A stretch of DNA of 64,000 bases from assembly GCA_030581615.1 (NCBI GenBank), contig JAKTTT010000072.1, positions 37,713-101,712 of the forward strand. Reading direction: 5' to 3'. A program made the position numbers and the translations under genes. The notes below the pieces were generated by a model. That model saw only the letters and a program-made list of their open reading frames with translations, searched no databases and was not told the origin of the DNA. The DNA is from Alloascoidea africana (Eukaryota; Ascomycota; Alloascoideomycetes; Alloascoideales; Alloascoideaceae). Positions 5,096-64,000 of the stretch are shown in pieces (position 1 is the stretch's first letter; the number at the start of each line of letters is the position of its first letter).

Positions 5096-5568
5096 TTAGC
5101 CCGGCCCGATCTTGGGCATCTCGTTATGTTCAGATAACGATGCCAAGTATTGGTTGTATTCCGTTACTCTTTGCTCGTGTGTTTTTGAAGCTTTACCCCG
5201 GAGAATTTTCTCCAACTAGTTCAATGTTAGTGAGTGCTCACAAAACATAATTGCAAATAGCATACTCTTTTGCGTCTTGCTTCTTCAAATTTCCTTTCAG
5301 ACTCAGTCTTCGGAACCTCTTTATTGAATGTTTCTAACTCCTTTTCTATGAGGCAATCCACGGATCCATCCAGCTCACGGTTTTGCTCTTCCTTGTTCTT
5401 GTTCTTTCTGTCCTCACTTTTGGTATCGCTTCCACCAACAACGGCGCCATGGGTCGATGATTTCTTGCTCTTATGCCCGCTCTTGTTTTTTTTCTTTGAA
5501 ATCTTGTTTGAATCGCCCTTAAACTTGAGACGGAGCTTCTTCTTCTCCTTCGTCGCGTCCTCTCCCAT
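5096..5568 (-). CDS. FAM32A-like small nuclear protein
   Basis: Minus-strand gene with two exons, 5568-5266 and 5215-5096, around a 50-nt intron (5265-5216; GTATGC donor, CACTAAC branch, CTAG acceptor), giving 140 residues. The N terminus is lysine-rich (MGEDATKEKKKLRLKFKG). The spliced C terminus carries the FAM32A signature: EEARRKRLEKILRGKASK, then THEQRVTEYNQYLASLSEHN, ending EMPKIGPG. Without splicing the frame ends in an unrelated dozen residues, so the intron is well supported. The family is small and nuclear; human FAM32A has been seen in the catalytic spliceosome, where it helps 3' splice-site use, but a role in this yeast is inference. An upstream GTG extends the frame, but the ATG at 5568 matches the family start. 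It shares a 168-bp divergent promoter with the pyrophosphatase paralogue. Confidence 0.85.
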
Positions 5569-5736
5569 GTCTCTCCTCCTACACCTTGTTTTTGGGATGT
5601 GGGCAGAGTGCGTTTCCGTAATACACCACCTTTCAAAGTCACGTGGTGTCACAACCGTGATGTTGTGTGCGAGAAGAGCTCATCGCCATCGCTATCACAA
5701 TCCTGAACCTTCTCTTTACTCGAAGAAACACCGGAA

Positions 5737-6609
5737 ATGGAGTTTTCTACACGTTCAATTGGGGCTCCCAACACTCCAGAGCATTTGGTGTATATTGAGA
5801 AGGATAATAGTCCTATTTCGACTTTTCATGATGTTCCTCTTTTCGCAGACAGCGTCAATGGGGTTTATAACATGGTTGTAGAGGTTCCAAGATGGACCAA
5901 TGCAAGGATGGAAATCTCCAAGAAGAAGCAATTGAATCCTATCAGACAATGTAGTAAGGGAAAAGCCCTCAAGTATGTCAGAAACTGCTTTCCTCACCAT
6001 GGGTATATCCATAACCACGGCGCTCTGCCACAGACCTGGGAGGATCCTAGTTTGGTGCATCCCGAGACGAAAGCTTTAGGCGATGATGGGCCCTTAGATG
6101 TGTGTGAAATCGGTAGTCGTATAGGCTACGTCGGTCAGATAAAGCAGGTTAAAATCCTAGGGATCATGGCCTTGCTACACAAAAATACCACGGACTGGAA
6201 GGTAGTTGCAATCGATGTGGAAGATCCAATTGCTGAAAAATTGAATGATATTGAAGACGTTGAGCAGGAGTGTCCTGGAATTCTAAGAGCCTTGAATGAG
6301 TGGTTTCGAATTTATCACGTCCCTGAAGGCAAGCGCGAGGACTTTTTTGCATTCTCTGGAGAAGTCAAGAATAGAAAGTACGCCGATTATGTCATTAAAC
6401 AAGCAAACAAAGCATGGGAGAGGTTGATCAATGGCAACGTTTCTGAATCAACAAAGGTGGATATCACAAATGCAACTTTGACTGAAACCCCGGGCTTTTG
6501 TGATGTCAGTGTTTTGAATCTTCCAGAGAACCAGAACTTGCCCCCTGCTCCTATTGACAAATCTGTTGAAGAATGGTATTTCATTCGTTGTGCTCCTCCT
6601 TCTCCCTAA
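5737..6609 (+). CDS. Inorganic pyrophosphatase paralogue, probably catalytically dead
   Basis: An uninterrupted 290-residue frame aligned end to end with yeast Ipp1, the soluble family I pyrophosphatase that hydrolyses PPi: [66 protein letters not shown] and NEWFRIY are all present. Against the yeast active site (numbering without the initiator Met, counted from memory of the yeast sequence), several catalytic positions differ: Lys56 is Arg, Arg78 is Lys, Tyr93 is His, Asp117 is Gly, Asp147 is His and Lys193 is His. Glu48, Glu58, Tyr89, Asp115, Asp120, Asp152, Lys154 and Tyr192 are kept. Loss of Asp117 (activates the water) and Asp147 (metal ligand) argues against normal activity. The frame is intact and long, so it is a maintained paralogue rather than a decaying pseudogene; an essential active IPP1 should lie elsewhere. 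Confidence 0.9.
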
Positions 6610-6749: not shown

Positions 6750-9700
6750 CTATTTTCCAAATAGCATCTTGGCAACAAGGGTGACATTTCGTTCTTCCTT
6801 GTCGTCGCCAGGACCAGAATCAGCGTCAGCACTTCCACCAACGCTCTGGTCAAGCGCCAACTTGTTATTTGCAAGTGACAAAATATTCTCCTCTATAGAG
6901 TTTTTTGTAACTAAACGTACCACACGAACCTCCCTTGTCTGGCCCACACGATGCGCTCTGTCTTCCGCCTGTTTATCATCATGGGGGTTGAAACTCTGGT
7001 CAAAGATTATGACCACGTTCGCACAGGCTAGATTAATTCCAAAACCACCAGCTTTGGTTGATAGCAGAAAAACCGAAATGGATTCATCCTCATAAAATTG
7101 GTCAATCATGTCTTGCCGTGATTGCACATCTGTTTGGCCATCCAGTCGCAAAAACGACATATTCATGGTGGATAAAACTGGCTCCAACAGATCCAAAACC
7201 TGTGTAAATTGAGAAAAAATCAGGATTCGGTCTTTGTTGCGAACCATTCCAGGAAGCATCTCCTTCAGTTTGGCCACTTTCCCAGATTCCATCCACTCTT
7301 CATTCTGAAGAGCATACTTTTCAATGCTCTTGAATTTGAGACACAGAAGATGTAGTTCATAATCCGACATCACTTCCATATCCTCAAAAATGTATTGCCT
7401 GTTTGCATCCATATATGCATCCTCTCTCATTATATCCTTTGCCATCTTGTGCAGCAAGTCGGTTCCATAGTGCTTTCTAAATAACAGTGGATGAATTGCA
7501 GCTTTCCTGAGTTGCATCATAACGTTGTTAGACGTTTTATCTCCCTTTTTAAAAGAAATGCCATCTTTCCGCTTTTGTATTGATTCGCGCCCAGCTTTCA
7601 ATTCTGCTTCGTACAGAACTTTCTGGGATGGTAGTAAATCACAATACTCTATTGTTCTTGTTTTTGGAGGCAAGTGCTGGAGGACTTGATCTTTTCTCCG
7701 CCTCAATATGAACGGAGCCATCATTGTCTTTGCACTTGTGATTCGTTGCTGCGATAAAAGTGGGTTATAATTGCTATTATCATCTGTTGTCTTTGCCTTT
7801 TGTTTGAAAATCCCTTGTAAATCTTCCTTCTTTTCTTTAAAAATCGCAGGAAGTATAAATGCCAACAAAGAAATCAATTCTTTCAGATTGTTTTGTAACG
7901 GAGTACCCGTTAGCAAAAGTCTAAACTGTGCTTTCAGCTTCATTAGCTTTGTATATCGCTCAGATTCGCTATTCTTCAGCATATGTCCTTCGTCATAGAC
8001 ACAACAGTTGAATTTGATACTCTTTAAAAACCCCATATCATACTTGCCTCCAGTTGCAAGATTGTAGGTCGTGACAAGAACATTGAAATGGGCATCGCTG
8101 AGAGCGATCCGCAAGTCTGATCTTTCTGTTTGGTTTCCGTAATAAGGTTCAACAATCAGAGAAGGGCAGAACTTTTTAAACTCGCGAAGCCAATTTTCTA
8201 AAGTGGAGGATGGGACGACAATGAGATGGGGGCCTTCAATACCCACCTCTCTTAAATGTGCAAGGAAAGCAATTACCTGGCATGTTTTCCCGAGCCCCAT
8301 TTCATCTGCTAAAATGCACGAAAGACCTTTCTTGTACAGGAGATTTAGCCAATTGATGCCAACCTGTTGATAGTTGTTCAAGGTTAAGTCGTCGGCCAAC
8401 ATTGATGGCTTTTCTGCAAAATATCCTCCAGGAAACTTTCTCTTTACAGAAGTGGCAATGAGGCCTTCTTCTTCGTCGTCTTCACCACTTTTATCTGATG
8501 GCGGCACTGAATCGTGGAAATCAACATCTACAGCTTCGATTTCCCCTTGTAATCCCCGAACGTTAATTCCCCATTTCTTTATAGCAGAGCTGACCTCTGT
8601 TCCCAATTCATTGCATTTCTTAATAAGAGAGTCGATTGCTTCGTACCCCAGCAAAGTAGAAGAACACGCATCAACCACTTTTGCACCAGCCAACTTTCGA
8701 TTTCTACCCTTTTTCTTGGCATCCTCAGGCATCCCAACATTGCGAGCACTGTTGAGGGATTTAAAAGGTCGTTTACTGACGATCTGGTCCGCAACTTCAT
8801 TTGTACAGGACGCTATATCCGCAATGTCTCGCTTAGAGGCCGTATTCAGAAACTCCAATACTCGGAGGTCAAATGCATACTCCTCCGAATTATCGTAACT
8901 CTGATCATCGTCTGATTCGTCTGTTTCCTGGTCAATAGCTTCAGGTTCCTCATCACTCAAAGCAATCACTTTGTGTCCTAGGTCTGGCAAAGTTGTAGTG
9001 CTCCGATTTCCCTTGACGAGGCGCCGTCTTGGTTTAGCCTCCGCTGTTGGTTCGCTAGTCCTCACTGTTTTAGTACCAAACTTTTGAGCGATTGATAACT
9101 TTGGTTTAGCAATGTTTACTTTTGAAGTCGAAACCAGGTTTTGAGCTGTGGGCGGGGTGGTGATTCTGGAGTTTGCAGACCCAAAGCTAGTAGATGAGGA
9201 TGTCGATGACAAAAGGGATGACGACGAGGGAAGGGAGATGAGGTTTCTCTTAAATCTCGAACGGAGATACGCAGCAGCATCATCAAAGTTGACTTTTATT
9301 CGAAGAGCAGACACGACAAGGTTCTCCGAGACTCCAGGAAACATTTCTTTCAGCCTTTGGGCGTTGGCTGAAAGATGATTACGGTGTGTGCCTATAGTAC
9401 CACCCGAACCATGGCCAGAGTCAAGACCAGAGCCAGTCGATGGTCCCCGGATAGGTCCAGAAGGTCCTCTCTGAATCTTTGGATTTGGCCCCGAGTAGCC
9501 AAACTTGGCCATCAAATCGGAGGACAAATTTTCAAACCCGCGTTTGTTGTCGTGGCTGGTCATACTGCCGTTTGTTGTAATGCTGGATGGTGTAGTGCTA
9601 TTGGTGTGGTCATCGGAGCTGGTGTCCATTGCTGATAAGCCTAGGAAATTTCCTGTTACCGGAGAAGACAGAAGAGCGCCAGGAGAAGAGTCGGGGACTT

Positions 9701-9755
9701 GAATATATGGCTCTGGTTTTCTCGGTGTGGTTACACTATCCTCAGTAGTGGGCAT
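6750..9755 (-). CDS. FUN30: Fun30, SWI/SNF-family chromatin remodeller with CUE domain
   Basis: Single exon, 1001 residues, ATG at 9755. The N-terminal third is Ser/Thr-rich and contains a CUE ubiquitin-binding domain (LKEMFPGVSENLVVSALR, about 130-165). The Snf2 ATPase follows: motif I DEMGLGKTCQV at about 485, motif II as DEGH at about 587, LTGTPLQNNLKEL, then motifs V-VI (STKAGGFGINL, DRAHRVGQTREVRV at about 937). The DEGH box and CUE domain identify the Fun30/SMARCAD1 subgroup. Known role: nucleosome sliding and histone exchange, silencing at heterochromatin, and long-range resection at double-strand breaks. It is convergent with the pyrophosphatase paralogue (140 bp between stops) and divergent from ESF2. 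No truncation or altered ATPase motif was seen. Confidence 0.96.
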   Translation of the reverse strand: MPTTEDSVTTPRKPEPYIQVPDSSPGALLSSPVTGNFLGLSAMDTSSDDHTNSTTPSSITTNGSMTSHDNKRGFENLSSDLMAKFGYSGPNPKIQRGPSGPIRGPSTGSGLDSGHGSGGTIGTHRNHLSANAQRLKEMFPGVSENLVVSALRIKVNFDDAAAYLRSRFKRNLISLPSSSSLLSSTSSSTSFGSANSRITTPPTAQNLVSTSKVNIAKPKLSIAQKFGTKTVRTSEPTAEAKPRRRLVKGNRSTTTLPDLGHKVIALSDEEPEAIDQETDESDDDQSYDNSEEYAFDLRVLEFLNTASKRDIADIASCTNEVADQIVSKRPFKSLNSARNVGMPEDAKKKGRNRKLAGAKVVDACSSTLLGYEAIDSLIKKCNELGTEVSSAIKKWGINVRGLQGEIEAVDVDFHDSVPPSDKSGEDDEEEGLIATSVKRKFPGGYFAEKPSMLADDLTLNNYQQVGINWLNLLYKKGLSCILADEMGLGKTCQVIAFLAHLREVGIEGPHLIVVPSSTLENWLREFKKFCPSLIVEPYYGNQTERSDLRIALSDAHFNVLVTTYNLATGGKYDMGFLKSIKFNCCVYDEGHMLKNSESERYTKLMKLKAQFRLLLTGTPLQNNLKELISLLAFILPAIFKEKKEDLQGIFKQKAKTTDDNSNYNPLLSQQRITSAKTMMAPFILRRRKDQVLQHLPPKTRTIEYCDLLPSQKVLYEAELKAGRESIQKRKDGISFKKGDKTSNNVMMQLRKAAIHPLLFRKHYGTDLLHKMAKDIMREDAYMDANRQYIFEDMEVMSDYELHLLCLKFKSIEKYALQNEEWMESGKVAKLKEMLPGMVRNKDRILIFSQFTQVLDLLEPVLSTMNMSFLRLDGQTDVQSRQDMIDQFYEDESISVFLLSTKAGGFGINLACANVVIIFDQSFNPHDDKQAEDRAHRVGQTREVRVVRLVTKNSIEENILSLANNKLALDQSVGGSADADSGPGDDKEERNVTLVAKMLFGK

Positions 9756-63216: not shown

Positions 63217-63633
63217 AAGGTTAGAATTCCATTCCACAAAAGAAATGCCAATAAAGGAGAACTCAAACCTCCCAAAGTTTGTAGAGTTTTTCAAGCTAGA
63301 TAAGCTGTGAGCAGTCAAAGTAGCACGAATTCCCAGAGTAAGACATAAGCCCTGAGTATCTGGCTATGACCCAGACGCCAAGCGCTTACCAGTTTGCTGA
63401 TCGGTCAAAGTCCTCTACCCCAGTCTCTCTAAGAATGTCTCGATTTCAATCGAGAAATGCTCCAAAGGCTTGAAAATTTCGAGCATGTCCCTCTTGGACA
63501 AGTAAGAGGTGTGTGGGCGTTTCCATAGTAGATAACGTACTGTATATGCGAACGAATCACATATGCGAGCGAATCACTTTCCACAATCCTGCCAAACTCC
63601 TTATTTAACTATTACTTTCTTCTGACACATAAC
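63217..63633. other. Spacer before pogo-type transposase
   Basis: About 420 bp. A near-tandem GCGAACGAATCACATAT / GCGAGCGAATCACTTT pair occurs at about 63548-63580. A TTATTTAACTATTACTTT stretch before the next ATG may be its promoter or the inner edge of an element. No gene. Confidence 0.4.
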
Positions 63634-64000
63634 ATGTTTTCAAATTCTATAGAAGCCAATCTCCTCCTTGCCATCCAGGCTATCAAACAAGACCCAAAAC
63701 CCAGCATCCGGAAAATTGCCCAGACCTACTATGTTCCCTATTCAACACTGCGTACTACGATGAATGGAACTCGCGCACGCGTTGATATTCCTGCCAATTT
63801 AATGAGATTAAGTCAGCTAGAAGAGGAGACTCTAGTCAAGTTCATCCTTGACCTTAATGCCGGAGGATTTTCTCCCCGCCTCTCTGGTGTTGAAGATATG
63901 GCCAATCTCCTGGTTGCAGAGCGTGAGGGCTGACGCGTTGGGAAGCTCTGGGCTACAAACTTCGTCAAGCAACAACCAGAGCTCAAGACACGCTTTAATC
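63634..64000 (+). pseudogene. Pogo/Fot1-type transposase N terminus, TGA-interrupted, runs off window
   Basis: ATG at 63634. A helix-turn-helix of psq type (PSIRKIAQTYYVPYSTLRTT) is followed by a CENP-B/Tc5-type second HTH (LEEETLVKFILDLNAGGFSP, VEDMANLLVAEREG). An in-frame TGA at 63931-63933 then interrupts, and the same frame goes on RVGKLWATNFVKQQPELKTR, which is the conserved continuation (VGKxW...FxKR.PEL..RF) of these transposases. The frame is open to the window end; the DDE part would lie beyond. The TGA could have come from CGA by C-to-T change. Not functional unless read through. Confidence 0.7.

Follow-up and report, generated by a model that had tools for sequence, protein, structure and literature searches.

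Cytosolic inorganic pyrophosphatase, Ipp1, is essential in yeast (PMC11857102), and the work of its active-site residues can be followed in several papers on the family. The DXDXXD motif is given there as the signature of family I pyrophosphatases (PMC8386120), and a low-barrier hydrogen bond is described between Asp117 and the water that makes the attack (PMC11210485). For human PPA2, the metals M1 and M2 are ligated by the equivalents of Asp115, Asp120 and Asp152, and M3 is served by the equivalent of Asp147; the residue matching Arg78 binds PPi or phosphate, and the exit of phosphate is aided by those matching Lys73 and Lys76 (PMC11766831, the numbering of which we mapped as yeast + 49). 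Docking on a schistosome pyrophosphatase places the counterparts of Arg78, Tyr192 and Lys193 in contact with PPi (PMC8386120, mapped here as yeast - 2). Furthermore, the activity of the D117A mutant of mouse PPA1 is reported as undetectable (PMC3633968), the equivalence of mouse and yeast D117 being taken from the yeast work cited in that paper.

Other described systems bear on the present locus from a greater distance. Drosophila NURF-38 is a pyrophosphatase within a chromatin remodelling complex and as such a precedent for a pyrophosphatase inside another complex; it is reported to be active (PMC4424980), whereas the protein described here is predicted to be inactive. FAM20A with FAM20C, and the inactive homologue of S-adenosylmethionine decarboxylase, offer examples of an inactive paralogue beside an active relative (PMC10211241); these belong to other enzyme families and are known heterodimers, whereas for our protein a pairing with Ipp1 is a proposal.

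We analysed a window of 64,000 nucleotides from Alloascoidea africana, in which positions 5737 to 6609 of the forward strand hold an open reading frame running from ATG to TAA, encoding 290 amino acids and containing neither a stop nor a frameshift. The encoded protein covers positions 1-153 of the 153 of Pfam profile PF00719, the family I soluble inorganic pyrophosphatases, scoring 139 bits where the cut-off is 23.5, and phmmer aligns its residues 1-284 with residues 1-284 of yeast pyrophosphatase; the best chain reaches E 2.5e-120, and the top four of the five alignments shown are free of gaps. Its identity to yeast Ipp1 is 59%, and a sequence-only reading of this DNA was right to describe the frame as full length and closely Ipp1-like. 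On the evidence of the reading frame, the family profile, phmmer and the alignment we treat the gene as an intact Ipp1 paralogue and a predicted pseudo-pyrophosphatase; with a probability of about 0.57, it arose long ago as a dispersed copy of the gene for the cytosolic pyrophosphatase, no longer hydrolyses PPi and is kept as a pseudoenzyme.

The paralogue was aligned with yeast Ipp1 and with three further pyrophosphatases of the same genome (L001, L002 and L003), and compared at 14 positions which we take to make up the active site. Eight of them are unchanged (E48, E58, Y89, D115, D120, D152, K154 and Y192) and six are replaced, namely K56R, R78K, Y93H, D117G, D147H and K193H. The sequence-only reading had named these same six replacements in yeast numbering; against yeast Ipp1 all of them fall in register at active-site positions, and the numbering is correct when residue 1 is the first after the methionine. 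Thirteen of the 14 positions, all but Y89, are named directly or as mapped counterparts in PMC11210485, PMC8386120 and PMC11766831. The sequence-only reading described Asp117 and Asp147 as catalytic or metal-binding; in these papers the former is the partner of the attacking water and the latter lies on the M3 side.

All the changes can be placed on the forward strand of the window. The signature stretch (6082-6099) reads D-D-G-P-L-D, in which the middle aspartate, D117, has become glycine (codon GGG, 6088-6090) while D115 and D120 are kept, so that the DXDXXD signature itself is lost. K56R is encoded by AGG at 5905-5907, Y93H by CAC at 6016-6018 and K193H by CAC at 6316-6318. Further replacements stand beside the altered sites. 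In loop I (5950-5973), the phosphate-exit and PPi-binding loop according to PMC11766831, D71C, K74G and K76A accompany R78K, and K73 is kept; in loop II (6178-6189) the M3-side change D147H is followed by E148K, G149N and E150T. The adjoining D152-W-K154 (6193-6201), with its metal ligand and active-site lysine, is retained, and P199R completes the set. D117G takes at least two base changes within its codon, K193H two, and K76A and E150T three each; since several codons differ by two or three bases, isolated base-calling errors are an unlikely cause.

Compared with S. cerevisiae Ipp1 and mammalian PPA1, then, the paralogue shares homology over its full length, eight of the 14 active-site residues and the M1/M2 ligands; it differs in the replacement of D117, of the M3-side D147 and of four PPi contacts, and in the rewriting of loops I and II. 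Yeast Ipp1 and L001-L003 are identical to one another at all 14 positions. As a wider control we used bacterial family I pyrophosphatases from two phyla, comprising 49 of the 51 distinct matches listed, with two partial matches left out (29 of 31 from one search, 19 of 19 from another and one more from a third). K56, Y93, D117 and K193 are present in all 49, and D147 in 48; E48, E58, D115, D120, D152 and Y192 are likewise found in 49 of 49, K154 in 48 and Y89 in 44. The column of R78 is insecure and uninformative in this set (R in 19, K in 18, other residues in 12). None of the 49 bacterial enzymes carries the joint changes of the paralogue at D117, D147, K56, Y93 and K193. Among the 123 positions conserved in yeast Ipp1 and L001-L003, the paralogue is changed at six of the 14 active-site positions and at 21 of the 109 others (one-sided p = 0.054); the excess at the active site is borderline, and the paralogue has diverged outside it too.

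Read against the published roles of these residues, the sequence predicts a protein that keeps the M1/M2 site but is devoid of Asp117, of the aspartate serving M3 and of the usual contacts to the substrate. Because D117A alone left mouse PPA1 with no detectable activity (PMC3633968), there is strong reason to expect that the paralogue has lost PPi hydrolysis. As a homologue of an enzyme from which conserved catalytic residues are missing, the paralogue answers in this respect to the description of a pseudoenzyme.

Alternatively, the same pocket could have been remade to suit a different substrate or metal, and Y93H, D147H and K193H might then form, with the retained aspartates and glutamates, a transition-metal site serving a different phosphoryl-transfer or hydrolytic reaction. 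Histidine has indeed been introduced at three of the six altered sites, while none of D115, D120, D152, E48, E58, K154 and Y192 has changed; where the four substrate contacts are replaced, the new residues are still polar or basic, and relative to IPP1 the protein has gained both cysteine (six against one) and histidine (nine against seven). We nevertheless judge this explanation unlikely, as the glycine at position 117 has no obvious stand-in in the sequence and the geometry of the three histidines is hypothetical.

The 23.18 Mb genome (138 contigs) was examined by a six-frame search in which the best candidates were considered, and the paralogue was also used as a query with E values up to 10. 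It contains at least four family I pyrophosphatases by this count. L001, on contig C10, is IPP1-like and 78.7% identical to yeast Ipp1. L002 (C109) and L003 (C13) are both extended at the N-terminus, are 61% identical to each other and, judged by these extensions, are apparently mitochondrial enzymes of the IPP2/PPA2 type. Each of the three retains all 14 active-site residues. The paralogue belongs to the same family and genome as the IPP2/PPA2-type pair but differs from it by its altered active site and by the lack of an extension, and is nearer to IPP1 (63% identity to L001 as against 44% to both L002 and L003). A second, complete IPP1, for which a search of the genome had been suggested, is therefore present in L001, and the objection that the genome might hold no other soluble pyrophosphatase falls away. 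As an observation apart, the two apparently mitochondrial enzymes with complete active sites compare with a single mitochondrial one in S. cerevisiae (PMC11857102).

In phylogenetic analysis the best topology joins the paralogue with the IPP1 of its own genome (AU 0.86, against 0.16 and 0.21 for two alternatives); neither alternative is rejected at these values, and the duplication may lie before or after the split from S. cerevisiae. Searches for relatives gave two Vibrio matches among plasmids (about 30% identical across 60% of the query), three distant bacterial pyrophosphatases in the genome_contigs set and none in the viral_contigs set. A joint duplication with neighbouring genes was considered and rejected. 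When stop-to-stop reading frames of at least 80 amino acids were compared, 74 kb of the paralogue's contig (C72) and roughly 40 kb surrounding IPP1 on C10 shared only the pyrophosphatase pair and its antisense frame; the adenylosuccinate synthase gene has one match in the genome, and the gene that converges on the paralogue (6750-9755, reverse strand) has no second close copy, the next best match being 39% identical over part of its length. By its reading frame and sequence match this convergent gene encodes a SNF2-type ATPase, which we take to resemble Fun30. The divergent neighbour (5227-5568, reverse strand) is FAM32A-like, its 21 bits falling a little short of the 22 that Pfam requires. 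An E-box, CACGTG, at 5640-5645 (-97 of the paralogue) was dropped as a signal, because IPP1 is also preceded by one, at -175, and seven occur in the window.

Several observations were made on other genes along the way. Of the nuclear complex I core subunits, the 49-kDa and 51-kDa proteins each match this genome twice and the 30-kDa protein once; also listed with these duplicates are matches at G000:C23:33983-34504 and C25:94573-95094. The 49-kDa pair (L011 on G000:C18 and L012 on G000:C34) agrees over the mature part in all but one of 390 residues (389 of 390) and differs at 171 of 390 third codon positions, with different N-termini; these are old duplicates held almost identical at the protein level. 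In the PDB the 49-kDa protein is closest to chains named NUCM, those of Yarrowia lipolytica, which together with the 79% identity between L001 and yeast Ipp1 points to an ascomycete yeast; a lipase-like gene had distant PDB matches only. A carboxylesterase-like match (L007, G000:C21:14273-15832) contains three in-frame stops, one TGA and two TAA, and is a decayed or intron-bearing gene. An open frame at the end of the window (63532-63930), perhaps a transposase fragment, resembles the Psq helix-turn-helix weakly, under the Pfam threshold, and shares a stretch of 82% identity with C109.

The history of the paralogue was assessed by comparison with L001. The two genes differ at 28%, 20% and 54% of first, second and third codon positions, respectively, and at 63% of 73 fourfold sites, which is near saturation. 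Two methods gave dN of 0.28-0.29 and dS of 3.1-3.7, the latter being near-saturated and unreliable as a number, and the resulting dN/dS of about 0.08-0.09, computed within one genome only, is still far below 1. The marks of a decaying pseudogene, such as stops, frameshifts and the loss of codon constraint, are thus absent. In a neutral simulation carried to 63% protein identity, with point substitutions only, no indels and all divergence placed on the paralogue branch, a stop-free frame survived in one of 400 runs and the mean was 5.3 stops. Taken together, the intact frame, the near-saturated synonymous sites and this simulation rule out decay as the leading reading. The changes from IPP1 also follow the constraint of the family, touching 27 of the 123 conserved columns and 76 of the 158 variable ones (p = 6e-6), and the 64 changes specific to the paralogue are milder than random single-base ones (mean BLOSUM62 of 0.63 versus -0.37). 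Selection has acted during much of the history of the gene, a statement in which the times before and after loss of the active site are pooled.

Constraint is clearly relaxed all the same, as the branch of the paralogue is about eight times as long as that of IPP1 (0.578 against 0.075 substitutions per site), and Tajima tests with three outgroups agree on the faster evolution of the paralogue (p = 3e-10 with yeast, 8e-5 and 0.005). Such a long branch, the 21 changes among 109 otherwise conserved sites outside the pocket and the absence of any special sparing of hydrophobic residues would also suit a copy that served for long as a working second pyrophosphatase, was recently inactivated and is now drifting, its stops not yet gathered. 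This seems improbable to us, given that pocket codons two or three bases away imply many later hits without a stop or an indel, and that the spectrum of change is mild and follows the family constraint; a very recent loss is made less likely by those codons in particular. The sequence-only reading of a gene that is maintained and not decaying stands as far as the frame and the general constraint are concerned, both being kept and decay by long neutral drift being unlikely; constraint after loss of the active site, and the regulator or dimer-partner role that it put forward, are conjecture.

Continued pyrophosphatase activity, weak or with another metal and specialised for instance to one compartment or growth state, would accord with the retention of K154, D115, D120, D152 and both glutamates and with the lysine that phmmer aligns at position 78 in the 8prk chain of yeast pyrophosphatase (a solved R78K variant, reportedly the subject of Tuominen 1998), but it is very improbable in the face of the joint change of D117, D147, K56, Y93 and K193, which occurs in none of the 49 bacterial enzymes, and of the undetectable activity of D117A alone in mouse PPA1 as reported in PMC3633968.

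For the maintained pseudoenzyme that we favour, the following picture may be drawn. The protein would fold as a family I pyrophosphatase and dimerise, may still bind, though weakly, an anion and one or two divalent metals, and would not activate water. Weak binding of metal and anion is plausible because the M1/M2 aspartates are kept and the pocket is still largely basic, its replacements being K to R, R to K, Y to H and K to H. Concerning the fold and the dimer surfaces, which had been claimed to be preserved, R51, W52, H87 and W279, which we take to be residues of the dimer interface, are all kept, and D277, presumably another, has become Glu. Where L001 and yeast share a residue, the paralogue departs from it as often at hydrophobic positions (21 of 70) as at polar ones (32 of 105), and no clear sparing of core-type residues is seen; the figures for Gly, Pro and Trp are 4 of 15, 2 of 17 and 0 of 6. 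An AlphaFold model built from four sequences was useless (pLDDT 36.7).

As to what such a protein may do, we suggest only tentatively a non-catalytic job, either as a partner of Ipp1 or in the sensing or binding of ligands of the phosphate type by the remodelled, largely basic pocket. Paralogues of duplicated homomers frequently form heteromers in yeast (PMC6711710), and inactive tuning partners are known in other families (PMC10211241); for these reasons pairing with Ipp1 would be the likeliest single function. The same source describes a tendency of heteromer-forming paralogues toward higher identity, and the 63% between the paralogue and IPP1, a moderate value, counts against a partner. GC3 is 0.44 in the paralogue versus 0.62 in IPP1 (0.43-0.50 in the two other pyrophosphatases and the Fun30-like gene), which suggests a lower abundance than that of Ipp1, and the codon bias may weakly argue against an abundant stoichiometric partner. 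Taken more broadly, it is possible, at somewhat less than even odds, that a pyrophosphatase fold has been turned into a dedicated sensor of ligands or partner of Ipp1, or else, by virtue of the three histidines it has gained, into a new metal-dependent activity, and is kept by selection.

Our literature search, with most subscription journals lying outside it, returned no report of a pseudoenzyme among inorganic pyrophosphatases, which is weak evidence of absence. If the paralogue is a pseudoenzyme it would be, as far as these searches show and within the literature searched, the first described in the soluble pyrophosphatase family. Soluble pyrophosphatase drives biosynthesis. If maintained, a dead paralogue would offer a natural handle on the tuning of PPi hydrolysis by heterodimers and would show how much of the pyrophosphatase fold serves non-catalytic purposes.
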